From NCBI RefSeq assembly GCF_011762155.1, contig NZ_JAASQL010000003.1, positions 124,001 to 188,000 on the forward strand: DNA of 64,000 nucleotides, in the 5' to 3' direction. Position numbers and translations under genes: made by a program. Source of the stretch: Wenyingzhuangia heitensis. Its GTDB lineage: Bacteria > Bacteroidota > Bacteroidia > Flavobacteriales > Flavobacteriaceae. Below are positions 25,575-64,000 of the stretch, one piece after another (position 1 is the first letter of the stretch; every line of letters starts with the position of its first letter). Under the pieces are notes generated by a model that worked only from the letters and a program-made list of their open reading frames with translations, had not been told where the DNA came from and did not search any database.

Positions 25575-25613
25575 TTTTTTGGTTTATGATGATACTATCA
25601 AATCTCTAGTATT

Positions 25614-25651
25614 CTGTTGATATATCTAAAACCAAATGATGAAATCAACAG
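25614..25651. promoter_or_regulatory. Inverted repeat upstream of GH86
   Basis: CTGTTGAT (25614-25621) and ATCAACAG (25644-25651) form an 8-bp perfect inverted repeat with 22 bp between, 40-77 bp before the GH86 start. The spacing suits a dimeric regulator or a weak hairpin leader; there is no T-run, so it is not a terminator. Confidence 0.4.
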
Positions 25652-25675
25652 GATAAACGTTGAAAGTAAAACAAA

Positions 25676-25715
25676 AAAACCCCTTAGAATAATGATGATT
25701 ATTCTAAGGGGTTTT
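25676..25715 (-). terminator. Intrinsic terminator after GH29
   Basis: An 18-bp stem with CCCCTTAGAATAAT in the left arm (25676-25693) and its complement (25698-25715), GATG loop. It lies 24 bp after the GH29 stop and cuts GH86 off from the GH2-GH29 pair. Confidence 0.92.
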
Positions 25716-25738
25716 AAATCATTTGTGGTAGTAACCCT

Positions 25739-31282: not shown

Positions 31283-31300
31283 TTTTATGTTTTTTTTTAA

Positions 31301-32317: not shown

Positions 32318-32404
32318 AAATGTAGTTGTTTAAGTTTTTAGTTATTAAATGTTATGATAGTTGTTTTAGTGTTAAAACCCTACTAATCATAAGTTTGATT
32401 TGTA

Positions 32405-33454
32405 TTACCAACTAAATTTAAAAATAGTAGTACTTTTAAACTCTTCACCAGCTTTGGTAATCGATTTTGGTGAGTTTTTTATATTTGGTCCATTAGGGAA
32501 TCTGTGTGTTTCACAACAAAACCCTTTATATTTTCCAAATTTCTGTCCGTTTTCTCGTTGAATTTCATCAGAAGTGTATTTACCTGTGTAGAATAACATT
32601 CCTGGCTCAGTAGTAGAGACTTCTAATTTTCTTGAAGTTACATTTGATGATATTTCTGCTACTTTTTCTAACTGAAAAGCTTCTTTGTCAAAAATGTAAT
32701 AATGTTCAAAACCATCGTTCATAGCAGTATGCACATGTTTGATAATTTTTGAAGTTCTTAAATCATCATCTTCTCCATTTAAATTAACTACTTCTCCTGG
32801 AGCAGCTCCTGTATCATCCATAGCCAATTTGTTACTCGCTTTTATTTTAACATTGTGTCCTTCTATAGAAGTAGTAAATCCGTTTAAATTAAAATAAGTG
32901 TGATTGGTTAATGCTAAAGGAGTATCTTGATCTGGTGTAGCAGTATAATTTATAGACAACTCGTTATTATCATTTAAAGTAAACGTAACTGCTACGTTTA
33001 CATTTCCTGGAAAACCTTCTTCTAAATCTTTACTAATTAAAGACATTGTAACTCCAGTAATTGTATCTGTATTTATAACTTTTGCCGCCCAAACTTTTTT
33101 ATCAAAACCGACAACCCCACCGTGTAAGTTGTTCTCTCCACAGTTTACTGCCAAAGGATATTCTTTACCGTTTAAGCTAAATTTTGAGTTTTTTATTTGA
33201 GAACAATATCTCCCTACAGTTCCACCAAAGTAGGGAGCATTGTCTGTATAAACTTTTGAAAAATAATTCTCAAACTGATCAAAACCACAAGCTAAGTTCT
33301 CTATTCCTCCCTTATCATTAGGCACATTAACAGTGGTAATTGTAGCACCAAAACTACTTATTTTGATTTCAACTCCATTGTTATTTTTAATGCTATATAA
33401 TTCTATATCTTGACCCTGATAGGTTCCAAATTTTGATACTGTTGTTTTCATCAA
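32405..33454 (-). CDS. galM: Aldose 1-epimerase
   Basis: The 349-aa GalM-family mutarotase has His111 in NNLHGG, His185 in TNHTYFNL, and the catalytic Glu in FCCETHRFPN near the C-terminus. There is no signal peptide, so it is cytoplasmic. It would speed anomer exchange of galactose or anhydrogalactose released by the operon's glycosidases. The start could be either of two adjacent Met codons. The upstream stop is 13 bp away, and an 87-bp gap follows before the symporter. Confidence 0.9.
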   Translation of the reverse strand: MMKTTVSKFGTYQGQDIELYSIKNNNGVEIKISSFGATITTVNVPNDKGGIENLACGFDQFENYFSKVYTDNAPYFGGTVGRYCSQIKNSKFSLNGKEYPLAVNCGENNLHGGVVGFDKKVWAAKVINTDTITGVTMSLISKDLEEGFPGNVNVAVTFTLNDNNELSINYTATPDQDTPLALTNHTYFNLNGFTTSIEGHNVKIKASNKLAMDDTGAAPGEVVNLNGEDDDLRTSKIIKHVHTAMNDGFEHYYIFDKEAFQLEKVAEISSNVTSRKLEVSTTEPGMLFYTGKYTSDEIQRENGQKFGKYKGFCCETHRFPNGPNIKNSPKSITKAGEEFKSTTIFKFSW

Positions 33455-33467
33455 TTTAATTTTAATA

Positions 33468-34562
33468 TTATTTTTCTTCGTATTGTGCTAATTTTTCCCA
33501 GTTAAAAATAACCCCAACACCTGGATAGTCTGGAGCCACTGCTCTGTAATTTTCTACAACTAAAGGTCTAGTTGTGTATTCATCTATAGGAAAACTATGT
33601 ACTTCTAACCAGCCCGAATTAGGTTGTGCAGAAACCAAACTTACGTGCAATTCTTGCATTCCATGAGAACATGCTGGAATTCCGTGCTTATCTGCCAATC
33701 TAGCAGCTGCTAACCATCCTGTAACTCCTCCACAGTTTGATGCATCTGGCTGTACAAAAGATAACTTTGCTTGATCAAAAGCATATTCAAATTCGTGAAT
33801 AGTGTGTAAGTTTTCTCCCATTGCTAAAGGAAAACCTGTAGCATCAACTATCTCTCCAAACCCTTTATAATTGTCTGGAATAATAGGTTCTTCAAACCAT
33901 GTAATATTTTGATCTTTAAATCCTTCTATCGCTTTGATTGCTTTTTCTACCGTCATAGAGTAGTTTGCATCCACCATAAAAGTTACGTCTGGCCCAATAT
34001 ATTCTCTTACTGCTTTGATACGTTCTAAATCTTCTTCTAAATTCTCACGACCAATTTTAATTTTAACCGCATTGAATCCTTTTTCTAAATAACCTTTCAT
34101 GTTATTTAGTAACTTTTCTATTGGGAACATTAAATCAATTCCTCCACAATAAGCTTTACAAGTGTTCCCTGCTCCACCGGCCATTTTCCATAAAGGCTGA
34201 CCTGCTTTTTTACATCGGATATCCCACAAAGCAATATCTACAGCAGAAATTGCAAAAGAAGCAATTCCTCCACGTCCTACGTAATGAATGTGCCATTCTA
34301 GAAAATCATAAATACCTTCTATATCTGTACCGTCTTTACCTATTAATGCATTTGTAAAATCGTGCTCTACCATTGCTTTAATAGCAAAACCTCCTTTACC
34401 TCCAGTATAGGTATATCCTGTACCTTCACTACCATCTTCTAAAGTAACGGTAACTGTTACCAACTCAAAATGATAATGATCTCCATGTTTAGCATCTGAC
34501 ATTACCTCTGGTAACGGCACCGTAAACAATTGTGTTTTAATATTTGAAATTTTTGTACTCAT
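33468..34562 (-). CDS. 3,6-anhydro-L-galactonate cycloisomerase (enolase superfamily)
   Basis: The 364-aa mandelate racemase/muconate lactonizing-type protein has the Lys167-x-Lys169 catalytic pair (VKIKI). Metal ligands are Asp198 (VDAN), Glu224 (WFEEP) and Glu250 (MGEN), and His300 (CSHG) is the second catalytic residue. Characterised enzymes of this type open the anhydro ring of 3,6-anhydro-L-galactonate to 2-keto-3-deoxy-L-galactonate. The assignment rests on the family plus GH117 and the dehydrogenase next to it. An 85-bp gap separates it from the aldehyde dehydrogenase. Confidence 0.85.
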
Positions 34563-34647
34563 ACTATTTTATGATAAAAGAGAGCAAAGCCACTGGCCCC
34601 ATAAACCAAAAAAACAGATACCAATGGCTAATACTCTAAAAAACTAA

Positions 34648-36102
34648 TTATGCTTTGTGTCTAATGTAGAAAGTCTTCTTTTCTAAATATTGTTCAAAAC
34701 CATATTTTCCATCTTCACCTCCAGAACCTGATAACTTGTATCCGTTATGGAAACCTTGATGTTGTTCACCATGACCTCTATTCACATAGATTTCACCGTA
34801 TTCTAATTCGTCATTACACTTCATAATCGTGTTCATGTCATTGGTAAATACCATCGCAGCTAAACCGTATTCACAGTCATTTGCAAAACCGATTACCTCT
34901 TCAAAAGAGCTAAATTTTAAGACAGGTAAGATTGGTCCAAAAGATTCTTCATGAACAATAGTCATGTCTTGAGTTACGTTTGTTAAAACCGTTGGCTCAA
35001 ACCAAAAACCTTTTTCAAACTCAGCTCCTTCAGGTCTTTTACCTCCTGTTGCAACTGTAGCTCCTTCTTTAATACTAATAGCTACCAACTCCTCCATATG
35101 CTTTAACTCAGAACCATTTACCTTTGGTCCCATATCAGTTTCTGCCAACATTGGGTTTCCAACTTTTATTGCTTTAGTTGCAGCAATAAATTTCTCCATA
35201 AATGCATCATAAATTCCTTCGTGCACATACATACGCTCGTTACAAGTACAAACTTGTCCACAGTTGTCAAAACGAGAATGTAAAGCAGATGCTACAGCAG
35301 CATCAATATCTGCATCTTCAAATACAATAAATGGAGCTTTCCCTCCTAACTCTAATTGAACATGTGTTAAATTGTTTGCTGCGTTACGTGCAATTTGCTG
35401 TCCTACAGGAGTAGAACCAGTCATTGTAACCATTTTACAAATAGGGCTTTCTACTAACGCATTCCCCATTGCTCTACCAGGTCCTGTTAAAATATTAATA
35501 ACTCCAGCAGGAATTCCTACTTTTTGAGCTAAGTTTCCTAACTCTAATGTTGCTAAAGGAGTTTCTGAAGTTGGTTTGATTACAATCGTATTTCCTGCAA
35601 CCAATGCTGGACCTAATTTTCGTCCTGCCAATGCCAATGGGAAATTCCATGCTGTAATTGCAACTACAACTCCACGAGGTACTTTCTGAATCCAAATTTG
35701 TTCATTTGGATTGTCTGAAGGAATAATATCTCCCTCAATTCTACGAGCACCTTCTGCAGCATATCTAATAAAAGATGCCGTAACAGCAACTTCTCCTTTT
35801 GCTACTTTTAATAATTTCCCTTGCTCACTAACTAATAATTCTGCTAAATAATCTGAATTAGCATCAATTTCATTTGCTAAAGCATATAAATAATCAGCAC
35901 GCTCACGAGCTGGTAATTTTTTCCATTCTTTTTGTGCTTTATCAGCAGCTTCTAAAGCTTCAATAGCCTCTTCTGCAGTTCCGTTTTGCACTCTTGCCAC
36001 TACTTCTTCTGTAGATGGACTTACAATATCTATTGTTTGACCAGAAGTAGAAGTTCTCCACTCTCCATTAATAAATAACTGGTATTCTTTTACGTTTGAC
36101 AT
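34648..36102 (-). CDS. 3,6-anhydro-L-galactose (aldehyde) dehydrogenase
   Basis: I choose the ATG at 36102 (MSNVKEYQLF, 484 aa), because an in-frame start at 36156 would lie inside the SDR gene. The ALDH fold shows Asn153 (AWNFP), the general base Glu251 (ELGGKAP) and the catalytic Cys285 in NCGQVC. The protein resembles AldA-type enzymes. In agar-degrading bacteria this position is filled by the NAD(P)-dependent dehydrogenase that oxidises 3,6-anhydro-L-galactose to the acid. It follows the SDR stop by 28 bp. Confidence 0.87.
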   Translation of the reverse strand: MSNVKEYQLFINGEWRTSTSGQTIDIVSPSTEEVVARVQNGTAEEAIEALEAADKAQKEWKKLPARERADYLYALANEIDANSDYLAELLVSEQGKLLKVAKGEVAVTASFIRYAAEGARRIEGDIIPSDNPNEQIWIQKVPRGVVVAITAWNFPLALAGRKLGPALVAGNTIVIKPTSETPLATLELGNLAQKVGIPAGVINILTGPGRAMGNALVESPICKMVTMTGSTPVGQQIARNAANNLTHVQLELGGKAPFIVFEDADIDAAVASALHSRFDNCGQVCTCNERMYVHEGIYDAFMEKFIAATKAIKVGNPMLAETDMGPKVNGSELKHMEELVAISIKEGATVATGGKRPEGAEFEKGFWFEPTVLTNVTQDMTIVHEESFGPILPVLKFSSFEEVIGFANDCEYGLAAMVFTNDMNTIMKCNDELEYGEIYVNRGHGEQHQGFHNGYKLSGSGGEDGKYGFEQYLEKKTFYIRHKA

Positions 36103-36130
36103 ATTCCTGTTGTTTTTAATGTTAACTAAA

Positions 36131-36901
36131 TTATCTACCCATCCATCCACCGTCAACTAACATAACGGAACCATTCATATAAGATGCTGCTTCTGATGCT
36201 AAGAACACTGCTGGCCCTGCAAAATCAGTTGCTTCACCCCATCTTCCTGCTGGAATTCTAGATAAAATAGATGCTGATCTTTCTGGATCATTTCTTAAAG
36301 CTTCTGTATTGTCTGTTGCAATATAACCTGGTGCAATTGCATTTACATTGACTCCTTTACTTGCCCATTCGTTAGCAAAAGCCATAGTTAACTGACCAAT
36401 TGCTCCTTTACTTGCAGCATATCCAGGTACTGTAATACCTCCTTGGAATGTTAATAATGAAGCTGTAAAAATTACTTTACCATGACCTCTACTAATCATT
36501 TCCTTACCAATTTCTCTGGTTAAGATAAATTGAGCATTTTGATTCACTTCAATAACCTTATCCCACATTTCATCTGGATGCTCTGCAGCAGGAGCACGTA
36601 AAATTGTACCTGCATTATTTACCAAAATATCAATTTGTGGATGGTCTTTTTTAACCTCAGCAATAAATGCATACAAAGATTTTCTATCAGAAAAATCACA
36701 TTGGTATGCAGAAAAAGATTTTCCTGTTGCTTCTACCGCTTTAGACACTTTACTCCCGCTTAATTCTAACGATGCAGAAACTCCGATAATATTTGCTCCT
36801 GCTTCGGCCATACCGATAGCCATAGCCATTCCAATTCCTCTTTTACAACCTGTTACTAAAGCTGTTTTTCCTTCTAAACTAAATGTATTTAATATACTCA
36901 T
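36131..36901 (-). CDS. KduD-like SDR, 2-keto-3-deoxygluconate 5-dehydrogenase type
   Basis: The 256-aa short-chain dehydrogenase has the NAD-binding TGCKRGIG (17-24), NNAG (95-98) and catalytic Ser148, Tyr161 and Lys165 (YAASK). The overall sequence is KduD-like. In the known anhydrogalactose route an enzyme of this kind reduces 2,5-diketo-3-deoxy-L-galactonate to 2-keto-3-deoxy-D-gluconate (KDG). It sits 12 bp after the alcohol dehydrogenase that would make its substrate. Confidence 0.88.
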   Translation of the reverse strand: MSILNTFSLEGKTALVTGCKRGIGMAMAIGMAEAGANIIGVSASLELSGSKVSKAVEATGKSFSAYQCDFSDRKSLYAFIAEVKKDHPQIDILVNNAGTILRAPAAEHPDEMWDKVIEVNQNAQFILTREIGKEMISRGHGKVIFTASLLTFQGGITVPGYAASKGAIGQLTMAFANEWASKGVNVNAIAPGYIATDNTEALRNDPERSASILSRIPAGRWGEATDFAGPAVFLASEAASYMNGSVMLVDGGWMGR

Positions 36902-36913
36902 GATGATTTATTT

Positions 36914-37930
36914 TTATAATTGACAATCCATTAACACCTTTAATCCATCAGGATTTTTATCGATATTTTCAAAAACAGTTTGAATGTTAGACAATGGCTG
37001 AACATCTGTTATCATTTGTTCAAATGGCAATTCATTTGCTGTAATTAATTGGATTGATTTTTCATAATCTTCTTTCTCGTATACACGAGCACCGATTAAA
37101 CTTAATTCTTTCCAGAAAAATTTAAATAAATCAACTTCTTTTTTAACTCCGTGAATAGCAACCATTACAATTCTACCACAAATTCCTGCTACTTCACACA
37201 TAATATCTAAAGCAGGTTGTACACCAGCTACTTCAAAAACAACATCTGCTCTTTTGTTTTCTGTTTTACTTTTAACGTATTCTACTAAATCAACCTCTAA
37301 TGGACTAACAGCATCAAAACCTAATTCTTTAGCTTTTGCAATACGAGTTGGGTTTACTTCAGAAATAATTACTTGAGCCCCTACTTCTTTAGCAACCATA
37401 GCTACCAATAATCCAATTGGGCCACCACCTAAAACAACAGCAGTTTCTCCTTTTACCAATCCACTTCTACGAACATCGTGAGTAGCTACTGATAAAGGTT
37501 CTATTAAAGCTGCTAATTTTAAATCTGTAGTTTCTTGTAATTTGTGCAATGTAAAAGCAGGTACATTCCAATATTGCTGCATAGAACCTGGACTATCAAT
37601 TCCAATAAATTTTAAATCTTCACAAATATGATTGAATCCTTTGTCAGATGCTTTTACTTTTCTATCGTCTAATGGACGAACTACTACTTTATCTCCAACG
37701 GCATAACCTGTAACTCCCTCTCCAACAGCATCAATTGTTCCAGACATTTCGTGACCAATTGTCTGAGGCATTTCAACTCTCTTATCCATCATACCATGAT
37801 AAATATGAACATCTGTTCCACAAACTCCTGAATAAGCTACCTTAATTCTAACTTCACCGTTTAAAGGTTGCTCAATTTCTTTCTCAATTACCCCAAAGGT
37901 TTTATCACCTTTATATATTGTTGCTTTCAT
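36914..37930 (-). CDS. Zn-dependent alcohol dehydrogenase for a C5 hydroxyl (L-KDGal or L-galactonate)
   Basis: The 338-aa MDR protein has catalytic-zinc ligands Cys37 (GVCGTD), His60-Glu61 (GHE) and Glu144 (LIEPLSVATHD), and the Rossmann motif GGGPIGLLVA at 168-177. The structural-zinc lobe (about 84-104) has kept only Cys103 of the usual four Cys. First gene of the operon. Best call: 2-dehydro-3-deoxy-L-galactonate 5-dehydrogenase. The family also contains L-galactonate 5-dehydrogenase (LgoD), which oxidises the same centre, so it could serve both routes. Its start is 18 bp from an operator-like palindrome. Confidence 0.82.
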   Translation of the reverse strand: MKATIYKGDKTFGVIEKEIEQPLNGEVRIKVAYSGVCGTDVHIYHGMMDKRVEMPQTIGHEMSGTIDAVGEGVTGYAVGDKVVVRPLDDRKVKASDKGFNHICEDLKFIGIDSPGSMQQYWNVPAFTLHKLQETTDLKLAALIEPLSVATHDVRRSGLVKGETAVVLGGGPIGLLVAMVAKEVGAQVIISEVNPTRIAKAKELGFDAVSPLEVDLVEYVKSKTENKRADVVFEVAGVQPALDIMCEVAGICGRIVMVAIHGVKKEVDLFKFFWKELSLIGARVYEKEDYEKSIQLITANELPFEQMITDVQPLSNIQTVFENIDKNPDGLKVLMDCQL

Positions 37931-37948
37931 CTTAAAATTATTTAGATT

Positions 37949-37976
37949 CCAAATAAGGAACTAGTTTCTTATTTGG
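37949..37976. promoter_or_regulatory. Operator-like 28-bp palindrome, promoter-proximal
   Basis: CCAAATAAG-N10-CTTATTTGG with centre GAACTAGTTTC. It covers the expected transcription start just downstream of the TATATTTG element, 18 bp before the dehydrogenase ATG. It is related base for base to the site at 38028-38055. Probably bound by the IclR-family regulator encoded upstream. Confidence 0.7.
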
Positions 37977-37978
37977 AA

Positions 37979-37986
37979 CAAATATA
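37979..37986 (-). promoter_or_regulatory. -7 element of the anhydrogalactose operon
   Basis: Minus-strand TATATTTG, an exact TAnnTTTG match, lies 3 bp upstream of the proximal palindrome and 49 bp before the ATG. No clear TTG -33, which would fit a promoter needing or escaping a regulator. Confidence 0.6.
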
Positions 37987-38027
37987 CAATTAATTGTAAA
38001 AATTACACTTTTTTACATAAAAAAATA

Positions 38028-38055
38028 CCAAATATGAAATTAGTTTCATATTTGG
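38028..38055. promoter_or_regulatory. Operator-like 28-bp palindrome, distal
   Basis: CCAAATATGAAA-N4-TTTCATATTTGG, a perfect palindrome in both 12-bp arms, extended by T-A on either side. Centre to centre it is 79 bp from the proximal site. Its position upstream of the -7 element suggests cooperative binding or looping. Confidence 0.7.
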
Positions 38056-38106
38056 TACTCATATCATCAAAAAAAGTCAGTAAAAACAAGGGGACTGAAC
38101 CAAAAA

Positions 38107-38147
38107 AAACTCATAAACAGTTAGTTAAACAACTATTTATGAGTTTT
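38107..38147 (-). terminator. Intrinsic terminator after the IclR gene
   Basis: AAACTCATAAA/TTTATGAGTTT stem with a longer inner loop that itself contains AGTT/AACT, followed on the minus strand by a T-run. It separates the regulator gene from the operon it probably controls. Confidence 0.8.
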
Positions 38148-38172
38148 ATTTTTTCTTTTTAGAAAGAAAAAA

Positions 38173-38961
38173 TTAACCTACATATCCTAATTTAAGGGAT
38201 ATTTCTTTCGCATATTTTGCAATTACTTCTCCTTTTTTCTCAAAATCTTTAGAAGGCAATCGTCCATGTGGTGCGGTAATCCATATTGCTGCTACAGGAA
38301 CTCCATACTCGTTAAAAATTGGAGCACCCACACAATTAATACCTTGTATATCCTCGCCATTATCTACTGCGTAACCAACTTTTTTAACTTGCTTAAGCTG
38401 CTCTTTAAACACATCTTTTGATGTTAGTGTGTTTTCTGTAAAAGGAGTAAACTTAATTGTATCTACAATTGTATTCATTTCTTTGTCTGGTAAATGAGCA
38501 AGAATAGATTTCCCCCCCACAGAACTGTGTAAACTAAACTGAGTTCCTTGTTCTACAAATAATTTTACAGGATAAGAGGATGCCACTTGTTCTAAAATAG
38601 TTCCTTTGTCTCCAATAATAATACCTAGCATTACAGACTCCTTTAACTCATCTCTTGTAGCTCTCATTATATCTATAGAAACCTCAGCAATACTTTGTTC
38701 ATTCATTGCAGACAAACCAAGTGTTAACATTTTTCTAGAAAGTGTGATCTTTTTGGTCGTTTCATTTTTCTGAAGATAGTTTTTAAATATTAATGTACTT
38801 ACTATTCTAAATGCTGTTGTTTTAGTTATGGATAAATTTTCTATAATTTCTGCCAAAGTTAACCCGCCTTTACAAGTTGCTAGCAATTCAATTATCATTA
38901 ATCCACGTTCTAAATTTGGAACGTTATATATAGGCTTACTCTCTTCTTTTAAAATACTCAT
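38173..38961 (-). CDS. IclR-family transcriptional regulator
   Basis: The 262-aa protein has an N-terminal winged helix-turn-helix (about 14-75, with LTLAEIIENLSITKTTAFRIVSTL) and an IclR effector-binding domain (about 85-262). The effector part shows GGKSILAHLPDKEM, VDNGEDIQGINCVGAPIFNEYG and a ...VAAIWITAP core. IclR proteins often respond to sugar acids such as KDG. It lies directly upstream of, and in the same direction as, the anhydrogalactose operon, with two matching palindromes between. Repressor is the most likely mode because one site covers the start of transcription. Confidence 0.92.
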   Translation of the reverse strand: MSILKEESKPIYNVPNLERGLMIIELLATCKGGLTLAEIIENLSITKTTAFRIVSTLIFKNYLQKNETTKKITLSRKMLTLGLSAMNEQSIAEVSIDIMRATRDELKESVMLGIIIGDKGTILEQVASSYPVKLFVEQGTQFSLHSSVGGKSILAHLPDKEMNTIVDTIKFTPFTENTLTSKDVFKEQLKQVKKVGYAVDNGEDIQGINCVGAPIFNEYGVPVAAIWITAPHGRLPSKDFEKKGEVIAKYAKEISLKLGYVG

Positions 38962-55897: not shown

Positions 55898-57037
55898 TTA
55901 ATTACAGCTTCTTGCATTTACATTTCCAGATGGTGAATAAACTCTAATCCAATCTACATACATTTTAGTATTAGGTCCAGATTTAATATCAGAACTGTTC
56001 CAAAAATTATCTGTACTTCCATACCTCCAAGATTGTGCAGCTTGACTAATAATCATGTGCATCTCTCTTGTCAATCCATTCCCACAGCTTGTGTAATAAT
56101 CAGGATCTATACCATCTTCAACTCTTAAACCGCTTACGGTCTTTACTCTTTTTCCATCAATAAAATAATCCAAACGTTGGTTGTTTACCCATTTTACTCC
56201 AAAATAATGGTAATCCTCACTCCAAACCACATCATTAGCTCTACTACAATCTCCTGCTGATTGTTTTCTAGACATCCATGTCTCTACATGGGGTTGGTAA
56301 TCTAACCTAACTCCATTTTCTGTCTTAAAAGTGTGGTGACTTAAATGTATACGATCTCCATAATAAGGATAGTCACATTGTGTGTTATTAGGTCTTATTC
56401 TAGGCCCATAGGTTTCTAAATTATCTATTTCTTCTGTAGTACCTGCATCTCCACTAAGCATCCAAATAGCATTTGCCAGTTGCGAGTTGCTAATTTTAAC
56501 TTTAGCCTCTTGAAAAATAGGATAACTACTCTTAGCATTAGAGGTTATCATACCACAGTTTAATCTTCTACTAGCTCCAGAACCTGTGTCTGCTGCTGTT
56601 AACACCACGGCACGGTTAGAACCACTTAGGGTTTCAAACGTAATTTGATCTCCTGTCCATGCAGTAGGTAAAGGCCCTGTATAATTGTTTACAAATCCAT
56701 ACTTCCATTTGGATGAAAACACTGGAGCAGACTTCCCTCCAGGATAATCAAACTCATCAGACAAATCATCTACCAATTGCCAATTCCCCATTCCAAAAAC
56801 ACTACGGTTAACTGCTTGAATTGTATTGTTAACAGGTGCATCAAATAAAATATTGTCTATAGGGCTACAACTAGATAAAGTAGCAACGGGAGCTCCCTCT
56901 TTAGCAGGTAAATCTTCAAAACCTTCTAAAGAAGCATCCGAAACTTCGTTAGAATTGGAAATGTTTTCTTGGGTTTCTTCTCCACAACTAAACAATAATA
57001 AACAGACTAGCATACTGGTTAATCTCATAAAACTCAT
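55898..57037 (-). CDS. GH16 endo-beta-agarase/porphyranase-type lipoprotein (copy A)
   Basis: The 379-aa protein has lipobox LFSC (Cys18) followed by GEE, an acidic start fitting surface export. After a linker it has one GH16 domain (about 85-375). The catalytic motif is Glu-Ile-Asp-Asn-Leu-Glu within TTEEIDNLETYG. The stretch DRIHLSHHTF and the ending KMYVDWIRVYSP are typical of agarase-like GH16 branches. It cuts internal beta-1,4 bonds of agar-type chains; agarase versus porphyranase is not decided. It is a close paralogue of the enzyme at 57416 and has its own upstream region. Confidence 0.88.
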   Translation of the reverse strand: MSFMRLTSMLVCLLLFSCGEETQENISNSNEVSDASLEGFEDLPAKEGAPVATLSSCSPIDNILFDAPVNNTIQAVNRSVFGMGNWQLVDDLSDEFDYPGGKSAPVFSSKWKYGFVNNYTGPLPTAWTGDQITFETLSGSNRAVVLTAADTGSGASRRLNCGMITSNAKSSYPIFQEAKVKISNSQLANAIWMLSGDAGTTEEIDNLETYGPRIRPNNTQCDYPYYGDRIHLSHHTFKTENGVRLDYQPHVETWMSRKQSAGDCSRANDVVWSEDYHYFGVKWVNNQRLDYFIDGKRVKTVSGLRVEDGIDPDYYTSCGNGLTREMHMIISQAAQSWRYGSTDNFWNSSDIKSGPNTKMYVDWIRVYSPSGNVNARSCN

Positions 57038-57357
57038 AATTTATATTTTTTAAATTAATAAGTAATAAACATAGTCTCTACCTTATAAAAAGAATAAAAT
57101 ACTGTCTAGATTACACATAGACGTATTAGCTAGATTGTTGAAAAAAACCTGAAATAAAAGGTATAATTCTATACATATTCAGACAGCTACAAAATCTTAA
57201 AAAAACACAACCCAATACCGAGGAAAAAACAACATAAACACACACAGAAAACATTATCAACAATACAAGGTTAAAAAAATGATTATAACACAATAAAAAC
57301 ACATATACATTAACATCTAAACAAAATCTATAATCTTAAAAAAAACTCCTTAAAAAC
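57038..57357. promoter_or_regulatory. Upstream region of GH16 copy A
   Basis: About 320 bp of very AT-rich DNA without a gene. Near the start codon it contains GTCTAG (57104-57109, i.e. CTAGAC on the minus strand) and TAGACGTATTAG (57118-57129). A strict TAnnTTTG element is not seen, so the promoter may depend on an activator. Confidence 0.45.
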
Positions 57358-57392
57358 AAAAAAGCCTTCTTTTGCAAAGAAGACTTTTTATA
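57358..57392 (-). terminator. Intrinsic terminator after GH16 copy B
   Basis: AAAAAG-C-CTTCTTT/AAAGAAG-A-CTTTTT stem with one mismatch and a TGC loop, 24 bp after the stop at 57416. It isolates copy B from copy A. Confidence 0.85.
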
Positions 57393-57415
57393 ACAAAATT
57401 AAACTATAAAAGAGG

Positions 57416-58600
57416 TTAGTTACAACTTCTATTATTTACGGTACCTGTTGGAGAATAGACTCTAATCCAATCTACATACATTTTAGCATTAGGTCCTGTT
57501 TTAATGTCAGAACTATTCCAAAAATTAGTAGCTCCTCCATATCTCCAAGCTTGGGCTGCTTGACTAATAATCATATGCATTTCTCTTGTTAAACCATTAC
57601 ATGCTGTATAAGATTCTGGATCTATTCCATCCTTTACACGTAATCCTGTAACTACTTTTACTCTTTTTCCATCTACAAAATATTCTAACCTTTGCTCATT
57701 TACCCATTTTACACCAAAGTAATGATAGTCTTCACTCCAAACCACTTCATTATCTCTGCTACAGTCTCCTTCTGTTTTTTTTCTGGACATCCAAGTCTGA
57801 ATTTTTGGCTGGTAATCCATTCTTTGCCCTCCTACGGTCTTAAATGTATGATGACTTAAATGTATACGATCTGCATAATAAGGATAATCACACAGTGTGT
57901 TGTCGGGTCTTAATCTTGGTCCATAGGCTTCTAAATTATCTATCTCTTCTGTGGTACCAGATTCTCCACTCAACATCCAAACAGCATTGGCTAATTGAGA
58001 ATTGCTAATTTTAACTTTTGCTTCTTGAAAAATAGGATAACTACTCTTTGCTTTAGAACTAATCATCCCACATTTTAAAGTTCTATTCGCTCCTGTACCA
58101 GTCTCAGATGGAGTTAATACAATTGCTCTGTTAGCACCTTCTAAGGTCTCAAAAGTAATTTGATCTCCAGACCATTGTGTTGGGGCAGGTCCTGTATAAT
58201 TGTTAACAAAACCAAACTTCCATTTAGATAAAAATACAGAAGCCGTTTTACCTGCTGCATAATCAAATTCATCAGACAACTCATCTACCAATTGCCAGTC
58301 TCCCATATCAAACTCACTCAAATTTACTTCATGAATATTGTTATTTACTGGGGCATCATATAAAATATCATTTTCTGGGCTACAGCTAGACAAAGCTGCA
58401 CTTGGTTTTCCTTCTGCAGGTTCATAAGTTTGTTCTTCATTCCCAGACTCATCATCATCTTCCTCTTCTTCGGTTTCTTCTGTATCCTCCTTTACAGAAT
58501 CTACAGGATCAGGACTTACTACAATTTCTTTTGTATTAGTACTACAGCTTAAAAGCGTAAAATAAACAGCTAAGGTTAAAACCAATCTAATTAATTTCAT
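57416..58600 (-). CDS. GH16 endo-beta-agarase/porphyranase-type lipoprotein (copy B)
   Basis: The 394-aa protein has lipobox LLSC (Cys19), then a strongly acidic linker (about 34-60, containing EETEEEEDDDESGNEE), which copy A lacks. The GH16 domain (about 100-390) shares the catalytic motif EEIDNLEAYG, the DRIHLSHHTF stretch and the C-terminal KMYVDWIRVYSP. Most of the domain matches copy A, which points to local duplication. The acidic linker may hold the enzyme away from the membrane. Same uncertainty between agarase and porphyranase. Confidence 0.88.
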   Translation of the reverse strand: MKLIRLVLTLAVYFTLLSCSTNTKEIVVSPDPVDSVKEDTEETEEEEDDDESGNEEQTYEPAEGKPSAALSSCSPENDILYDAPVNNNIHEVNLSEFDMGDWQLVDELSDEFDYAAGKTASVFLSKWKFGFVNNYTGPAPTQWSGDQITFETLEGANRAIVLTPSETGTGANRTLKCGMISSKAKSSYPIFQEAKVKISNSQLANAVWMLSGESGTTEEIDNLEAYGPRLRPDNTLCDYPYYADRIHLSHHTFKTVGGQRMDYQPKIQTWMSRKKTEGDCSRDNEVVWSEDYHYFGVKWVNEQRLEYFVDGKRVKVVTGLRVKDGIDPESYTACNGLTREMHMIISQAAQAWRYGGATNFWNSSDIKTGPNAKMYVDWIRVYSPTGTVNNRSCN

Positions 58601-58753: not shown

Positions 58754-58783
58754 AAAAAACCGATGCAAAAGCATCGGTTTTTA
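58754..58783 (-). terminator. Intrinsic terminator after the mutarotase gene
   Basis: AAAAACCGATGC/GCATCGGTTTTT perfect stem with AAAA loop, 19 bp after the stop at 58802. Ends the minus-strand sugar-acid run. Confidence 0.95.
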
Positions 58784-58801: not shown

Positions 58802-59143
58802 TTACAATTGAAATACTTTTTCCATTTCAATCCATTTTTCACCATTCTTTGCCCAAGGTAAGCCTTGCTGATATTTCCACATCAACTCTTCCCACTCTTG
58901 CACTTTAGGATTGTTGGCATCCATTTCGGCTTTTTTGTTTGGATCAAATGTTTCATCACATTCCATAATCATAAACATTCTATTTCCAAACAAGTAAATT
59001 TGCATATCTACAATTCCAGCATCTTTTATACTTGCTGTAATTTCTGGCCAAGCATTTCCTGGAGCATGATATTCTTTATATTCTGCTATTAACTTAGGAT
59101 CATCTTTTAAATCGCAAGTCAAGCAATATCTTGTTGTACTCAT
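58802..59143 (-). CDS. L-rhamnose/L-fucose-type mutarotase (DUF718 family)
   Basis: The 113-aa protein is of RhaM-like size and fold, with YCLTCDLKDDPKLIAEYKEYH at the start and MQIYLFGNRMFMIMECDETF in the middle. The family interconverts anomers of 6-deoxy-L-sugars; L-galactose differs from L-fucose only at C6. It starts 5 bp after the FucP-like gene, so it is co-transcribed and would prepare the imported sugar for the dehydrogenase. Confidence 0.9.
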   Translation of the reverse strand: MSTTRYCLTCDLKDDPKLIAEYKEYHAPGNAWPEITASIKDAGIVDMQIYLFGNRMFMIMECDETFDPNKKAEMDANNPKVQEWEELMWKYQQGLPWAKNGEKWIEMEKVFQL

Positions 59144-59148
59144 ATTGA

Positions 59149-60486
59149 TTAGTTTTTAGATTTTTTATAAGTAACCATTCCATATCTAGCTACAACAGCC
59201 AAACAGATTAATGGTAAAATAAATGAAAAATTCACTTCTGGAATAAACCCTAAGATTTTCACATCAGAAAACCCAGGACCTCCCCAGTCTAAAATACTTC
59301 CTTGTAAAATTGGCATTAAAGCACCACCTACAATGGCCATTACCAATCCTGCAGAACCAATTTTAGCTTCATCTCCCATATCTTTTAAAGCAATTCCATA
59401 AATAGTAGGGAACATAATAGACATAAATAAAGAAACCAATACTAAAGAATATAATCCTATAGTTCCTGGTAATACAATTGCTCCGGCTGTAAAAATAACT
59501 CCACCAATACCAAACATCATTAATACTCTTGATGGATTCATCGTTTTCATCAACCCTGTTCCAATCCATCTACCTGATAAGAAAATAATCATGGCAGCTA
59601 CATTAAACCAAGTTGCTGTTAAAGCTTCACTTTCTGGCAAACCTTCATTTATATTGTCTACATATTGAAAAATATAAGTCCAACACATAATTTGTGCTCC
59701 CACATAAAATGCTTGCGCAACAACTCCTTGTTTGTAGTTGCTATTAGCAAATAATTTTTTAAACGATTCTGACAAGCCCATTTTGTCTTCTTCTGAAGTA
59801 GAAGGGATTTTGGTAAAAATAATAATCACCATAATTGCCAAAACAACCAATCCTAATAAAATATAAGGGACACTAATCACTCCTAAATCATTTTCTCTTA
59901 CTGCTGCTTTTGCTGTTTCCGATAAAGTATCATACACCAACTCTCCGGCTTCATTTTTATCATCAGATCTTAAAGCAGAAATTACAAATTGCTGAGCCAC
60001 AATCATTCCCATTAAAGAACCTATTGGGTTAAAAGCTTGTGCTAAATTTAAACGTTGTGTTGCCGTTTCTTTATCTCCTAACGCTAAAATTAACGGATTA
60101 GAAGTGGTTTCTAAAAATGCCAAACCACAAGTAATTACCCATAGAGACACTAAAAAATAATTAAATTCTTGAAAAGCCGCTGCTGGATAAAACAAAAAGG
60201 CTCCTATTGCATACAAACACAATCCTAAAATAATTCCAGATTTGTAACTAAATTTTCTAATAAACAAAGCTGCTGGTAAAGCCATAAAGAAATATCCAAA
60301 GTAAAACGCAAATTGTACTAAGGATGCTTGCATGTTAGATAACTCTGGCATTACTTTTTTAAATGCAGATACCATTGGATTTGTTAAATCGTTAGCAATT
60401 CCCCACAACGCAAATAACGATGTAATGATTATAAACGGAAAAAGTAGTTGTTTACTAACTACAGGCTTTTTTATAGTTTGATTCAT
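59149..60486 (-). CDS. FucP-like L-sugar:proton symporter (MFS)
   Basis: The 445-aa protein has twelve transmembrane helices. Residues matching the E. coli FucP proton and substrate sites are present: Asp33 in ANDLTNPMV and Glu126 in FLETTSNPLI. FucP carries L-fucose and also accepts L-galactose and D-arabinose. With a lactonase, UxaB and UxaA beside it, L-galactose is my preferred substrate. It begins 97 bp after the SDR stop; that gap holds an inverted repeat. Confidence 0.9.
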   Translation of the reverse strand: MNQTIKKPVVSKQLLFPFIIITSLFALWGIANDLTNPMVSAFKKVMPELSNMQASLVQFAFYFGYFFMALPAALFIRKFSYKSGIILGLCLYAIGAFLFYPAAAFQEFNYFLVSLWVITCGLAFLETTSNPLILALGDKETATQRLNLAQAFNPIGSLMGMIVAQQFVISALRSDDKNEAGELVYDTLSETAKAAVRENDLGVISVPYILLGLVVLAIMVIIIFTKIPSTSEEDKMGLSESFKKLFANSNYKQGVVAQAFYVGAQIMCWTYIFQYVDNINEGLPESEALTATWFNVAAMIIFLSGRWIGTGLMKTMNPSRVLMMFGIGGVIFTAGAIVLPGTIGLYSLVLVSLFMSIMFPTIYGIALKDMGDEAKIGSAGLVMAIVGGALMPILQGSILDWGGPGFSDVKILGFIPEVNFSFILPLICLAVVARYGMVTYKKSKN

Positions 60487-60513
60487 AATTTTTTAAATTA
60501 GTTTAAAAATAAA

Positions 60514-60554
60514 GTGTTGCTAATTAAGTTAAAATCAATCAAAATTAGCAACAC
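60514..60554. promoter_or_regulatory. 12-bp inverted repeat between the SDR and FucP-like genes
   Basis: GTGTTGCTAATT (60514-60525) and AATTAGCAACAC (60543-60554) form a perfect 12-bp inverted repeat with a 17-nt loop, followed on the minus strand by TTTATTTTT. It can act as a weak terminator that lowers permease expression, or as an operator. Confidence 0.55.
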
Positions 60555-60583
60555 AAAAGTTTCATTTATCTATCACAAATGTT

Positions 60584-61375
60584 TTATTCTGTCAATAAAG
60601 ACCTGTCTAAGTTTACATAACCACCGTCTACAGTAATAAATTGTCCTGTTGTGTGTGATGATTTTTCAGAAATAGTAAACAAACATTGGTCTGCAATTTC
60701 TGCAGGCATTGTCATTCTGTTTTCTAAAGGAATTTTTTTAACGATAGATTTTAACTTTTCTTCTCCATTTTCTAATGTATCAATCCATGCTTGATAAGCA
60801 GGAGTCCAGCTTTCTGCAATAACAATTGCATTAGAACGAATTCCGAATTTAATTAAATCTACAGCCCATTCACGAGTTAAACCAAAAACCCCTCCTTTTG
60901 CTGCCGCATAACCAGAGGTTCCTCCTTGTCCTGTTAAAGCAACTTTAGACCCTATGTTTAAAATATTCCCTTTTGCTTTTTTAAGCATTGGTAAACAATA
61001 TTTTGTCATGGCAAAAAAACTAACCATGTTTAAGTTTATAGAGGTCATAAAATCTTCCATAGAAGCATCTAATCCCGCACCATCATTTACACCTACGTTA
61101 TTGATTAAAGCATCTATTTTTCCATACTTTTTCTCTATCACTTTTGCAGATGCCTCTATTTGAGTATAATCAGACAAATCTGTTTTTACAAAAAGTGCAT
61201 CAATACCTTTTGCTTGTAATTCTTCTGCATATTCAAAACCTCTATCGTTTCTGTCAACTAATACAGGAATAGCTCCTTCTGCTGCTAAATGCTGTACAAT
61301 TGTTTCTCCTATACTTCCTTTAATTCCGGCAGCTCCTGTAACAACAACTACCTTTCCTTTTAATTTTAAGTCCAT
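60584..61375 (-). CDS. SDR-family L-fucose/L-galactose 1-dehydrogenase
   Basis: I choose the ATG at 61375 (MDLKLKGKVV, 263 aa), 10 bp after the lactonase stop; an in-frame ATG at 61429 would lie inside that gene. SDR motifs are TGAAGIKGSIG (13-23), NNVG (92-95), Ser143, Tyr156 and Lys160. Enzymes of this type oxidise C1 of L-fucose-like sugars to the lactone. With a lactonase directly upstream, that reaction fits; L-galactose is the inferred natural substrate. Confidence 0.8.
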   Translation of the reverse strand: MDLKLKGKVVVVTGAAGIKGSIGETIVQHLAAEGAIPVLVDRNDRGFEYAEELQAKGIDALFVKTDLSDYTQIEASAKVIEKKYGKIDALINNVGVNDGAGLDASMEDFMTSINLNMVSFFAMTKYCLPMLKKAKGNILNIGSKVALTGQGGTSGYAAAKGGVFGLTREWAVDLIKFGIRSNAIVIAESWTPAYQAWIDTLENGEEKLKSIVKKIPLENRMTMPAEIADQCLFTISEKSSHTTGQFITVDGGYVNLDRSLLTE

Positions 61376-61385
61376 CTTAATTTTT

Positions 61386-62213
61386 TTATAAATTATAAAA
61401 TTTAATAGCATTTTCTCCCATAATAGCACTTTGCTCTGGCAAACTTAATTTTGCTATAAAATTTGTAATTGTCTCTTTTATTTCTGTATAATTTCCGGCT
61501 ACCAAACAAACTGGCCAGTCAGAACCAAACATAATTCTATCGGTTCCAAAACTGTCTAACACTAATTGTAAATAAGGTTCTAATTGCTCTGGAGTCCATG
61601 TCTTGTAATCTGCTTCTGTTACCATTCCAGATATTTTGCAATACACATTTGGGTGTTTTGCAATCTCTGCCATCAACACAGCCCATCCATCATAAAAACC
61701 ATCTTTTATGTATGGTTTTGCGATATGGTCGATTACAAATTTTATGTTTGGAAATTTTTTAACAAACTCTAAAACAGTACCTAATTGATGTGGAAATACT
61801 AAGATATCATATACAAAATCGTATTTTTCTAACTTAGAAATCCCTTTCAAAAAGTTATCTCTTAGTAAGAAATTATGATCAGCCTCACCTTGTACTACGT
61901 GACGAAATCCTTTTAACACATCAAATTGGCTGTAATGTTCTAACACATCATCAATATTATCTCCTCTAAAATCTACCCAACCAACAACTCCTTTGATAAA
62001 GTTATTTTTAGAAGCTAGGTCTATTAAAAAGTTAGTTTCTTCTAACGTTTGGTCAGCCTGTACTACTACACAACCGTCAATATCGTTTTCTGAATATACT
62101 TTTTGTAAATCTTCTGGTGTAAAATCTCTACGAATCACAGCCATTTCATCGTCTATCCATTCGTGTTTTACAGGTTCGTAATTCCAAAAATGTTGATGTG
62201 AATCTATTACCAT
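61386..62213 (-). CDS. L-fucono/L-galactono-lactonase (COG3618 amidohydrolase)
   Basis: I choose the ATG at 62213 (MVIDSHQHFW, 275 aa), since the metal-binding HxH must lie close to the N-terminus. His6 and His8, the later IDHIAKP His and the Asp of FGSDWPV are the usual metal and catalytic residues. Characterised relatives open L-fucono- and L-galactono-lactones. The next gene's start follows the stop by 10 bp. Upstream a strong terminator separates it from uxaB. Confidence 0.85.
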   Translation of the reverse strand: MVIDSHQHFWNYEPVKHEWIDDEMAVIRRDFTPEDLQKVYSENDIDGCVVVQADQTLEETNFLIDLASKNNFIKGVVGWVDFRGDNIDDVLEHYSQFDVLKGFRHVVQGEADHNFLLRDNFLKGISKLEKYDFVYDILVFPHQLGTVLEFVKKFPNIKFVIDHIAKPYIKDGFYDGWAVLMAEIAKHPNVYCKISGMVTEADYKTWTPEQLEPYLQLVLDSFGTDRIMFGSDWPVCLVAGNYTEIKETITNFIAKLSLPEQSAIMGENAIKFYNL

Positions 62214-62239
62214 ATATAACTTCTTTATTATTGTAAACA

Positions 62240-62278
62240 AAAAAGTCTTTACAGGTATAGTACCTGTAAAGACTTTTT
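62240..62278 (-). terminator. Strong intrinsic terminator between uxaB and the lactonase
   Basis: 18-bp perfect stem AAGTCTTTACAGGTA.../complement (arms 62240-62257 and 62261-62278) with a 3-nt TAG loop and T-run. It lies only 5 bp after the uxaB stop and 27 bp before the lactonase ATG. Confidence 0.92.
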
Positions 62279-62283
62279 AAATA

Positions 62284-63723
62284 TTATTTTACAAAAGCAT
62301 CTAAACTAGCTTTTACTCCGTTTGCTACAATCCCTTCTAGGTGAGAAGTTACTGCTGCTTCTACTCCTTCTAAAGCTGTTAAATCTGTTCCCCAGAAATC
62401 TGTATTAGATAAAGTAGCTTTTACAATAGCAGGAACGTTTCCTGTTGCCCATTGGGCTTTAAAGAAGTCTAAAGCTGATTGGTCATCTTTTAATGCAATT
62501 TCTTCACCATTTCTATCTCCTTTGTAGAATGCAATTAAAGAAGCTAAAGAGAATAACAATCCTTGTGGTAACTCATTCTTTCTCTTAATGTATTCTAAAA
62601 CTGATGGTAAAACTCTTGTTTTAAATTTAGAGGTAGAGTTTAAAGAAATGCTCATTAACGCATGCTCTAAGTATGGGTTTCTAAAACGATCTAATACATC
62701 GTTAGAAAATTGTTTCAATTCAGCATCTGGTAAATCTAACGTAGGACAGATTTCATTAACAATCGTGTTCTTTAAGTAAGTTCCAACCACCTCATCTTCT
62801 AAAGATTCACGTACTTTATCTATTCCATATAAGTAACCTACAGGAACTAAAGTTGTGTGTGCTCCGTTTAAAATTCTTACTTTACGAGTTCTGTATGGCT
62901 CCATATTGTCTGTAAACACAATATTTAATCCACATGCTTCGGCAGGAATTTCATTTTTTACAGATGCAGGTCCTTCAATTACCCATAAGTGGAATTGCTC
63001 TCCTTCTACAACTAAGTTGTCTTTGTATCCTAATTCTTTAGTAATTGCATCCATTTTATCTCTTGGATATCCTGGTACAATTCTATCTACTAAAGAATTA
63101 CAGAAAATATTATCATTATTAATCCAAGCAACAAACTCTTCCCCTAAGTTCCAGTCTGCAGCGTATTGTAAAATAATTTTCTTTAAGTTATCTCCGTTTT
63201 TGTCAATTAACTCACAAGGAATTAAAATTAAACCTTTGTCAGAAGCTCCGTTAAAAGTTTGAAATCTCTTAAACAATAAAGCTGTTAACTTTCCCGGAAA
63301 ACTAGATTGAGGTGCATCGTCTAACTTATCATCAGCATTGTAAGCAATACCAGCTTCTGTTGTATTAGAAATCATAAAACGTAAATCTGGATTTTCAGCT
63401 ACCGCTAAATAATCTGCAGGATTTGCGTAAGGATCAATTCCTCTTTGGATACAGTCTACAATTTGGTGCTCGCTAATTGCTTCTCCATTCTTAATTCCGT
63501 TTAAATATAATGTATACAATCCATCTTGATCGTTTAACATTTTAATTAAACCCTGATCGATTGGCTGAACAGCAACAACTCCAGCATCAAAGTTTGCATT
63601 TTTGTTCATTTCATGAATCATCCAGTTAGCAAAAGCTCTCAAGAAGTTTCCTTCTCCAAATTGAATAATTCTTTCAGTATATGTTTTTACAGTCGTTGCT
63701 GTACTTCTATTTAATGAATTCAT
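62284..63723 (-). CDS. uxaB: Tagaturonate reductase (altronate oxidoreductase)
   Basis: The 479-aa mannitol-dehydrogenase-family protein is of UxaB length. N-terminal NAD-binding part: IIQFGEGNFLRAFANWMI. The catalytic Lys-x5-Asn-x-x-His arrangement is visible in RKVRILNGAHTTLVPVG. It interconverts D-tagaturonate and D-altronate with NADH. In galacturonate users it follows UxaC; no uxaC is seen here, so its tagaturonate may come from L-galactonate instead. Own leader of 73 bp after the uxaA terminator. Confidence 0.92.
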   Translation of the reverse strand: MNSLNRSTATTVKTYTERIIQFGEGNFLRAFANWMIHEMNKNANFDAGVVAVQPIDQGLIKMLNDQDGLYTLYLNGIKNGEAISEHQIVDCIQRGIDPYANPADYLAVAENPDLRFMISNTTEAGIAYNADDKLDDAPQSSFPGKLTALLFKRFQTFNGASDKGLILIPCELIDKNGDNLKKIILQYAADWNLGEEFVAWINNDNIFCNSLVDRIVPGYPRDKMDAITKELGYKDNLVVEGEQFHLWVIEGPASVKNEIPAEACGLNIVFTDNMEPYRTRKVRILNGAHTTLVPVGYLYGIDKVRESLEDEVVGTYLKNTIVNEICPTLDLPDAELKQFSNDVLDRFRNPYLEHALMSISLNSTSKFKTRVLPSVLEYIKRKNELPQGLLFSLASLIAFYKGDRNGEEIALKDDQSALDFFKAQWATGNVPAIVKATLSNTDFWGTDLTALEGVEAAVTSHLEGIVANGVKASLDAFVK

Positions 63724-63796
63724 TTTTTTTATTTTAGTAATTAATACAAAGTAGCTAGTACATAGACTGAACTACTTAAAATTTTATTTAAAAAAG

Positions 63797-63831
63797 GTAC
63801 AGAGTATTACTTTATACTGAATACTCTGTAC
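63797..63831 (-). terminator. Intrinsic terminator after uxaA
   Basis: GTACAGAGTATT/AATACTCTGTAC stem (63797-63808, 63820-63831) followed on the minus strand by a T-run, 10 bp after the uxaA stop. Confidence 0.9.
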
Positions 63832-63840
63832 TTGATATTA

Positions 63841-64000
63841 TTATAGAGACACTCCTCTTTTCCAAGGAATAAAATCATTATTACCATGTAAAACAGCCTT
63901 AGATGCAGTCTCTCCACTTGCCACTCTAATTACATGATCTAAAATCTTTTCTCCCATTGTTTGAATCGTATCCTCTCCTGTAATTACAGTTCCTGTATTA
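63841..64000 (-). CDS. uxaA: Altronate dehydratase, C-terminal end only
   Basis: The minus strand reads 52 codons to a TAA at 63841: ...TGTVITGEDTIQTMGEKILD... with the ending NDFIPWKRGVSL, the typical C-terminus of UxaA. The rest is outside the window. UxaA dehydrates D-altronate to KDG. Together with uxaB next to it this gives two successive steps of one route. Confidence 0.85.
   Translation of the reverse strand, partial: NTGTVITGEDTIQTMGEKILDHVIRVASGETASKAVLHGNNDFIPWKRGVSL

Follow-up and report, generated by a model that had tools for sequence, protein, structure and literature searches.

A predicted L-galactose operon with alternative first enzymes in Wenyingzhuangia heitensis and related marine Bacteroidota

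Which sugar is consumed by a gene run whose transport and first oxidation genes carry L-fucose names, yet whose remaining genes resemble those for L-galactonate? The question arises at one end of a 64,000-nucleotide stretch of Wenyingzhuangia heitensis DNA (assembly GCF_011762155.1, contig NZ_JAASQL010000003.1, here C3, positions 124001 to 188000), which we call the window and which belongs to a 3.67-Mb genome in 26 contigs. Open reading frames and family profile searches place six genes there, all on the minus strand, and a preliminary description made from the letters of the window had read them as a possible dedicated L-galactose route lacking one step. The run continues past the window edge into C3:186001-206000 (locus L002, whose coordinates become window coordinates when 62000 is added). 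Taken as a whole, it is very probably a complete, LacI-associated operon for L-galactose catabolism, of which the window genes form the downstream part.

Gene content and the predicted route

In Escherichia coli, L-galactonate is catabolized by LgoD, UxaB, and UxaA, through C5 oxidation, tagaturonate reduction, and altronate dehydration. Read along the minus strand, the run in W. heitensis begins beyond the window with an LgoD-like zinc dehydrogenase (L002:5295-6305), 42% identical to E. coli LgoD over 337 residues, whose best NCBIfam match is NF007489 (208 bits; cut-off, 376). Its residues C37, H59, and E60, which we take to be zinc ligands, are invariant in six of six aligned relatives, and the protein shares 98% identity with its counterparts in Wenyingzhuangia sp. 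2_MG-2023 and W. aestuarii and 96% with the one in Ochrovirga pacifica. Then come, on the same strand, a PfkB protein resembling 2-keto-3-deoxygluconate (KDG) kinase (L002:4229-5263; all NCBIfam matches below cut-off) and a 2-keto-3-deoxy-6-phosphogluconate (KDPG) aldolase (L002:3498-4166; NF005499, 377 bits; cut-off, 275). The gene for UxaA, a proposed D-altronate dehydratase with altronate/galactarate dehydratase domains, straddles the window edge: its C-terminal end occupies 63841 to 64000, with the stop codon at 63841, and it reaches 1,493 bases farther, to L002:3493. Direct comparison gives 32% identity to E. coli UxaA and, for the D-tagaturonate reductase UxaB (62284-63723, minus strand; NF002969, 682 bits; cut-off, 359), 46% identity to the E. 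coli enzyme.

After UxaB lies a strong terminator-like hairpin (62240-62278; −22.8 kcal/mol, z −7.4), a near-perfect inverted repeat that the scan listed on the plus strand and whose fold was computed for the minus strand; it is a possible attenuator and may tune expression of the last four genes. The first of these encodes an amidohydrolase of the L-fucono-1,5-lactonase family (61386-62213), the proposed L-galactonolactonase, which scores 260.5 bits against NF052480, under the cut-off of 400, and has 4dlf as its best solved relative. The next encodes a short-chain dehydrogenase (SDR; 60584-61375) of the L-fucose dehydrogenase family, the proposed L-galactose 1-dehydrogenase. Its top NCBIfam match is NF006384 (“SDR family oxidoreductase,” 386 bits), followed by the L-fucose dehydrogenase model NF052481 (352 bits; cut-off, 300), and its YxxxK motif falls at residues 156 to 160. 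A FucP-family sugar symporter (59149-60486; TIGR00885, 521 bits; cut-off, 280) precedes the final gene, for a RhaM-type sugar mutarotase (58802-59143) that scores 114.8 bits against Pfam rhaM (PF05336) and just 20.7 bits against the NCBIfam L-rhamnose mutarotase model (cut-off, 99.6). A terminator scan places a further hairpin 3′ of the mutarotase gene (58755-58782, minus strand; −17.9 kcal/mol, z −5.2).

We infer every substrate from sequence, and the route would run as follows. An alpha-L-galactosidase of family GH29 would free L-galactose, FucP would bring it into the cell, and the mutarotase would provide the right anomer. The SDR would oxidize L-galactose to its lactone, and the lactonase would convert this to L-galactonate. 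The zinc dehydrogenase, our candidate L-galactonate 5-dehydrogenase, would then oxidize C5 to give D-tagaturonate, UxaB would reduce this to D-altronate, and UxaA would yield KDG, which the kinase and aldolase would take through KDPG to pyruvate and glyceraldehyde-3-phosphate. We favor L-galactose over L-fucose because UxaB, KDG kinase, and the C5 dehydrogenase suit an acid with a C6 hydroxyl; L-fuconate is a 6-deoxy acid and has no such hydroxyl to phosphorylate. The core idea of the preliminary description is thus supported more strongly than before, by the dehydrogenase, kinase, aldolase, LacI, and alpha-L-galactosidase-like GH29 genes just past 64000. The description had also named an adjacent uxaC as speaking against the route and had noted that none was present, and this holds for the locus: L002 contains no uxaC beyond 64000, and the sole PF02614 match in the genome is on another contig (C5); by eye, its neighbors there look like uxuA, an SDR, and TRAP transporter subunits.

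The same sugar could be consumed with the steps in another order, and we regard this as unlikely. UxaA would then act first, converting L-galactonate to 2-keto-3-deoxy-L-galactonate, and inversion at C5 by the zinc dehydrogenase and UxaB would then lead to KDG, in the manner of the 3,6-anhydro-L-galactose route. By established chemistry, L-fuconate and L-galactonate have the same C2-to-C5 configuration, and the operon UxaA is closer to UxaA from fucose loci (55 to 56%) than to E. coli UxaA. UxaB, however, lies far over the tagaturonate reductase cut-off, and the routes of Luteolibacter and E. coli oxidize prior to dehydration, as set out in the accessible part of PMC12632266.

Conservation of the operon and its first enzyme

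We compared the locus with the best 80 of 266 confirmed candidates, picked by dehydrogenase similarity; some of these loci end at contig edges, and records from the organism's own genome may be omitted. Genes were counted as best BLAST matches to the proteins of the window organism at a query coverage of at least 45%, with identity above 45% for the SDR, FucP, and an aldo-keto reductase (AKR) and above 35% for GH29. Lactonase was found in 70 of the 80 loci, UxaA in 60, FucP in 58, and UxaB, SDR, and mutarotase in 56 each; GH29 was found in 32, KdgK and KdgA in 24 each, AKR in 9, and fucose-type hydrolase and uxaC in one each. The dehydrogenase, UxaA, UxaB, and lactonase occur together with either SDR or AKR in 51 of the 80 loci, a proportion that is no frequency in nature, because the loci were picked by dehydrogenase similarity. 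In all 51 of these full loci, which by record title span 18 named genera and include six species names that point to agar or Porphyra, the dehydrogenase, UxaA, UxaB, and lactonase genes share one strand. The gap between UxaB and lactonase is at most 30 bases, or the genes overlap, in 35 of the 46 loci listed (those with an intervening gene were excluded), so that most listed relatives have no room for a hairpin there. At a threshold of 1e-120, a close dehydrogenase occurs in 12 of 395 genomes of the phylum, our own included, two of them from another family of the class.

Because it is conserved in 51 of 80 dehydrogenase-chosen loci, the gene arrangement is more than chance. This bears on the suggestion that UxaA and UxaB are galacturonate pathway genes that lie beside a sugar-oxidation cluster by accident. 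The genome holds one UxaA match and one true UxaB (next match, 30%), so with uxaC on C5 galacturonate could use them; set against this, uxaC occurs in only one of the 80 related loci while the gene order is kept in 51, and we consider an accidental neighborhood extremely improbable.

The first enzyme differs among the full loci: 43 have the SDR, 8 have the AKR, and none has both. In all eight AKR-type operons, the AKR sits between lactonase and FucP, the slot that the SDR occupies elsewhere. Both types occur within Wenyingzhuangia (AKR in L069 and L070; SDR in L072 and L073), the AKR of W. aestuarii being at L070:16959-17912. The best solved match of the AKR is the L-galactose dehydrogenase 7lh6 (83 bits), with IolS next (79 bits). 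The authors who described LguA of Luteolibacter strain LG18 place it among known L-galactose dehydrogenases and found it active on L-galactose, with no activity on L-fucose, according to the accessible part of that report (PMC12632266). We lean, with some reserve, toward the view that in marine Bacteroidota L-galactose is handled by a self-contained operon under LacI control, tied to the breakdown of porphyran, and that the first enzyme of this operon is interchangeable, with an SDR clade of the L-fucose dehydrogenase family recruited to act as L-galactose dehydrogenase and an unrelated AKR swapped in, or the reverse.

Other variation was seen among the loci. The same Wenyingzhuangia loci hold two kinds of UxaB in the same slot, 46% identical to the window UxaB in L069 and L070 against 87 to 89% in L072 and L073. 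GH29 genes, 39 to 41% identical to that of the window organism, lie within the operon between UxaB and lactonase in nine loci (L038, L083, L090, L103, L113, L116, L117, L130, and L133). In Arenibacter loci L125, L132, L134 to L136, and L148, neither SDR nor AKR accompanies the dehydrogenase, UxaA, and lactonase; in L125 these three genes precede WecA-like and asparagine-synthase-like genes.

Overlap with L-fucose loci

A close SDR is present in 23 of 296 genomes of the order, our own included, and comparison of 28 other SDR neighborhoods yielded two groups. The nearer group (67 to 83% identity; 17 loci) has an LgoD-like dehydrogenase (51 to 77%) in 16 loci, and the farther group (49 to 57%; 11 loci) has a fucose-type hydrolase in 9 loci, a UxaA-type dehydratase in 7, and an LgoD-like dehydrogenase or UxaB in none. 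In the SDR tree (85 rows), nine of the 10 fucose-labeled rows and two unlabeled ones separate from all others (100/100). The remaining fucose-labeled row (L147), which owes its label to a weak 29% UxaA match, falls among those others. A comparison of residues gave no clear signature of SDR specificity: position 163 alone separates the labels, with V in 47 of 48 rows of galactose type, R in 9 of 10 rows of fucose type, and V in 12 of 12 rows from hybrid loci, that is, loci combining LgoD-like dehydrogenase and fucose-type hydrolase. The galactose-type rows do not form one clade on this tree (8 changes). For the UxaA tree we took 29 of 58 galactose-type rows, namely that of the window and alternate rows of the remainder; seven fucose-locus rows lie on one side, apart from the operon UxaA rows (97/97), but the E. 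coli row attaches beside these seven on a very long branch, a placement that drew a warning from the tool.

These comparisons also revise the earlier assertion that UxaB and UxaA cannot process fuconate. For UxaB, no role on a 6-deoxy acid is known. For UxaA the assertion fails: UxaA-type dehydratases occur in 7 of the 11 loci with a fucose-type SDR, each with the hydrolase, and altronate-dehydratase-like genes are found in the Campylobacter jejuni fucose cluster, as given in the accessible part of PMC9100392. The case for L-galactose is carried by UxaB, the kinase, the dehydrogenase, and the absence of the fucose genes looked for. The same loci are what an L-fucose operon would call on: FucP, mutarotase, SDR, and lactonase would yield L-fuconate, a UxaA-type enzyme would dehydrate it, and the family names of FucP, SDR, and lactonase would be explained. 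We nevertheless judge an L-fucose operon very unlikely. KDG kinase, like UxaB, has no known role on a 6-deoxy acid; the operon UxaA and the fucose-locus UxaA separate in the tree; and an AKR replaces the SDR in its slot. The genome, moreover, gives no match to fucose isomerase (PF02952) and no close match to the fucose-type hydrolase (nearest, 39% over 179 residues of a 213-residue frame), these being the lower fucose branch genes looked for; an aldolase-type branch and a separate keto-deoxy-fuconate dehydrogenase were not searched for.

Several observations nonetheless weigh against an L-galactose operon, beginning with the L-fucose names of the SDR and lactonase families. The zinc dehydrogenase and the kinase both score under the cut-offs of their NCBIfam models, the best NCBIfam model for UxaA is galactarate dehydratase (below cut-off), and E. 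coli UxaA is equally distant from the operon UxaA and the fucose-locus UxaA. A hairpin separates UxaB from the lactonase gene. Only one KDG kinase match at an E value of 1e-10 or better was found in the genome, so this step may be shared with other pathways; the aldolase, too, may serve them. Within the nearer SDR group, 11 of the 17 loci are hybrids with a fucose-type hydrolase and only 4 have UxaA plus UxaB; such hybrids argue against a galactose-only label for the SDR clade. Identity to E. coli LgoD is 46 and 43% for two hybrid-locus dehydrogenases, 42% for the operon enzyme, and 41% for a paralogue on contig C1, so that function cannot be read from this figure alone. Finally, a second cluster on C1, described below, may handle L-galactose or a related sugar.

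We read the hybrid loci as indicating that the upper enzymes can be shared and that the lower branch decides the sugar. A possible, if doubtful, extension of the L-galactose reading, compatible with it, is that SDR, lactonase, FucP, and mutarotase take L-fucose or D-arabinose as well as L-galactose in vivo, above a lower branch for L-galactose only. The co-occurrence of LgoD-like dehydrogenase and fucose-type hydrolase in 11 of 17 loci favors such sharing, while the genome itself lacks the fucose lower branch as far as it was looked for (isomerase and hydrolase). The weakest link in an L-galactose operon is accordingly the sugar preference of the SDR, as its clade also occurs in hybrid loci with fucose genes. 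The genome has no close second SDR (next match, 34%).

Across the loci compared, LgoD-like dehydrogenase and fucose-type hydrolase occur without UxaA and UxaB in L037, L041, L044 to L048, L050 to L053, and L146. The second cluster of the organism's own genome (C1:198439-206981; L065:6439-14981) comprises an AraC-like regulator (by eye), an enolase-superfamily dehydratase, a KduD-like SDR, an AKR, an alcohol dehydrogenase (ADH; 42% identical to the operon dehydrogenase), a FucP-like permease, a mutarotase-like protein, and a GH29. It is perhaps another route for L-galactose or a related sugar via 2-keto-3-deoxy-L-galactonate. The word “dedicated” in the preliminary description is therefore only partly borne out, given this cluster and a kinase that is the sole close copy in the genome.

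Regulation, red-algal setting, and known pathways

A LacI regulator gene (L002:6421-7512, plus strand) diverges from the operon. A perfect 20-bp palindrome, TTGTTCAAACGTTTGAACAA, lies at L002:6328-6347, about 20 bases upstream of the zinc dehydrogenase, and a copy with two mismatches lies at L002:6451-6470, within the listed LacI frame and, as we read it, just before the likely true LacI start. No further site anywhere in the genome comes within two mismatches, and no site matching the pattern lies in the window or in L004. A degenerate form of the pattern has an exact match in 19 of 151 loci, our own included (some loci overlap), each by coordinates at most 300 bp upstream of the dehydrogenase. 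Because the sites are confined to the divergent region and recur at the dehydrogenases of relatives, the pattern suggests a local repressor for the L-galactose operon. A wider LacI regulon was rejected: at up to three mismatches a reversed control gave 8 and 8 matches against 5 and 5 for the real pattern, and for this reason only the sites with zero and two mismatches were counted. Promoter-like sites were no commoner than in shuffled sequence (21 versus 24.3).

L-galactose is an uncommon, mirror-image sugar found in red algae, nori among them. Here it most likely comes from red-algal sulfated agars such as porphyran, in which L-galactose-6-sulfate stands in for anhydrogalactose (PMC5943477, accessible part). 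Across the LacI gene from the operon lies a GH29 gene (L002:7568-9103, minus strand) and beyond it, away from the window, a GH2 gene. The GH29 product, a predicted alpha-L-galactosidase, has BpGH29 as its closest solved relative, scoring 418 to 423 bits against the entries 7snk, 7ljj, and 7lnp, with fucosidases next at 296 and 280 bits. BpGH29 is an exo-alpha-L-galactosidase of the Bacteroides plebeius porphyran locus, according to the accessible part of PMC12316285, whereas its relative here lies outside the operon. A distant GH29 in L004 likewise ranks BpGH29 first (286 versus 234 bits), and for that reason the ranking alone does not prove activity. Within the window, a GH86 with porphyranase domains (23058-27289) adjoins a second GH29 whose nearest relative is BpGH29, and the solved structures closest to two proteins at 55898-58600 are beta-agarases, although Pfam named neither protein at 1e-5. 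On the operon's other side, L004 and L005 (C3:206001-246000) form a sulfatase-rich region with further GH29s, GH2, GH127-like, and sodium:solute symporter genes.

The window also holds a separate cluster (30044-38961) of GH43-like, RhaT-like, and GalM-like proteins, an enolase-superfamily enzyme, an aldehyde dehydrogenase, a KduD-like SDR, an ADH (36914-37930), and an IclR regulator. The preliminary description had proposed this ADH as the missing L-galactonate 5-dehydrogenase. The proposal fails: the ADH has 3,6-anhydro-L-galactose genes for neighbors, and its identity to E. coli LgoD is 29%, compared with 42% for the ADH of the operon. The gene order around it is that of Aquimarina ERC-38, whose row, in the accessible part of PMC10163077, comprises 2-keto-3-deoxy-L-galactonate 5-dehydrogenase, a KduD-like enzyme, anhydrogalactose dehydrogenase, and cycloisomerase. 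By this order, the ADH fits into the anhydrogalactose route.

The route itself is not new. E. coli performs the same three steps from L-galactonate with LgoD, UxaB, and UxaA, encoded in three places, whereas the genes here form a single run whose starting point is the free sugar. The oxidative L-fucose pathway shares the upper half (mutarotase, FucP, SDR, and lactonase) and differs in the lower, which here consists of LgoD-like dehydrogenase, UxaB, kinase, and aldolase. An L-galactose pathway was reportedly found in Bacteroides vulgatus by Hobbs in 2014. The accessible part of PMC12632266 describes its L-galactose dehydrogenase and L-galactonate dehydrogenase (BVU_0219 and BVU_0222), the first belonging to the LguA group and not to the SDRs. 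The same source describes the lgu cluster of Luteolibacter LG18 as a dual L-glucose/L-galactose pathway with L-galactose dehydrogenase, L-galactonate dehydrogenase, tagaturonate reductase, altronate dehydratase, KDG kinase, and KDPG aldolase steps, most of them in one cluster. Its first enzyme, LguA, is grouped there with BVU_0219 and plant L-galactose dehydrogenase; the operon here has no such AKR-type enzyme and carries the SDR in that place, a distinction we draw from the published descriptions. That part of the paper mentions no lactonase, and the cluster legend no permease or mutarotase, all three of which are present here; the LG18 KDG kinase is located elsewhere and is pyrophosphate dependent, and its regulator is annotated Btr and not LacI. 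The operon thus works, as predicted from its genes, like the LG18 and B. vulgatus pathways but with a different first enzyme. The preliminary description knew of no report of this gene set; the pathway has been reported, and what is apparently new is this gene set, the SDR/AKR swap, the LacI site, and the red-algal setting.

The LG18 authors, in the part of PMC12632266 accessible, found no organism with the LG18 set minus the L-glucose epimerase; the operons here would supply just such cases, limited to L-galactose and opening with a different enzyme. In Flammeovirga pacifica, which grew on porphyran and not on pectate, consecutively numbered tagaturonate reductase and altronate dehydratase genes were assigned by the authors to galacturonate (PMC5385347, accessible part), and an L-galactose role would fit them. 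Enzymes cutting porphyran to sugars have already been described (PMC12316285, accessible part), while in the open-access literature searched, judged partly by title and abstract start, we found no paper tracing freed L-galactose into metabolism in marine Bacteroidota. The operon would fill this gap between porphyran cutting and L-galactose metabolism, would help to correct records that assign its genes to fucose or galacturonate, and offers an example of one operon slot filled by two unrelated enzyme families. If the view of a self-contained operon with an interchangeable first enzyme is true, its presence would mark genomes whose owners can use the L-galactose half of porphyran completely.

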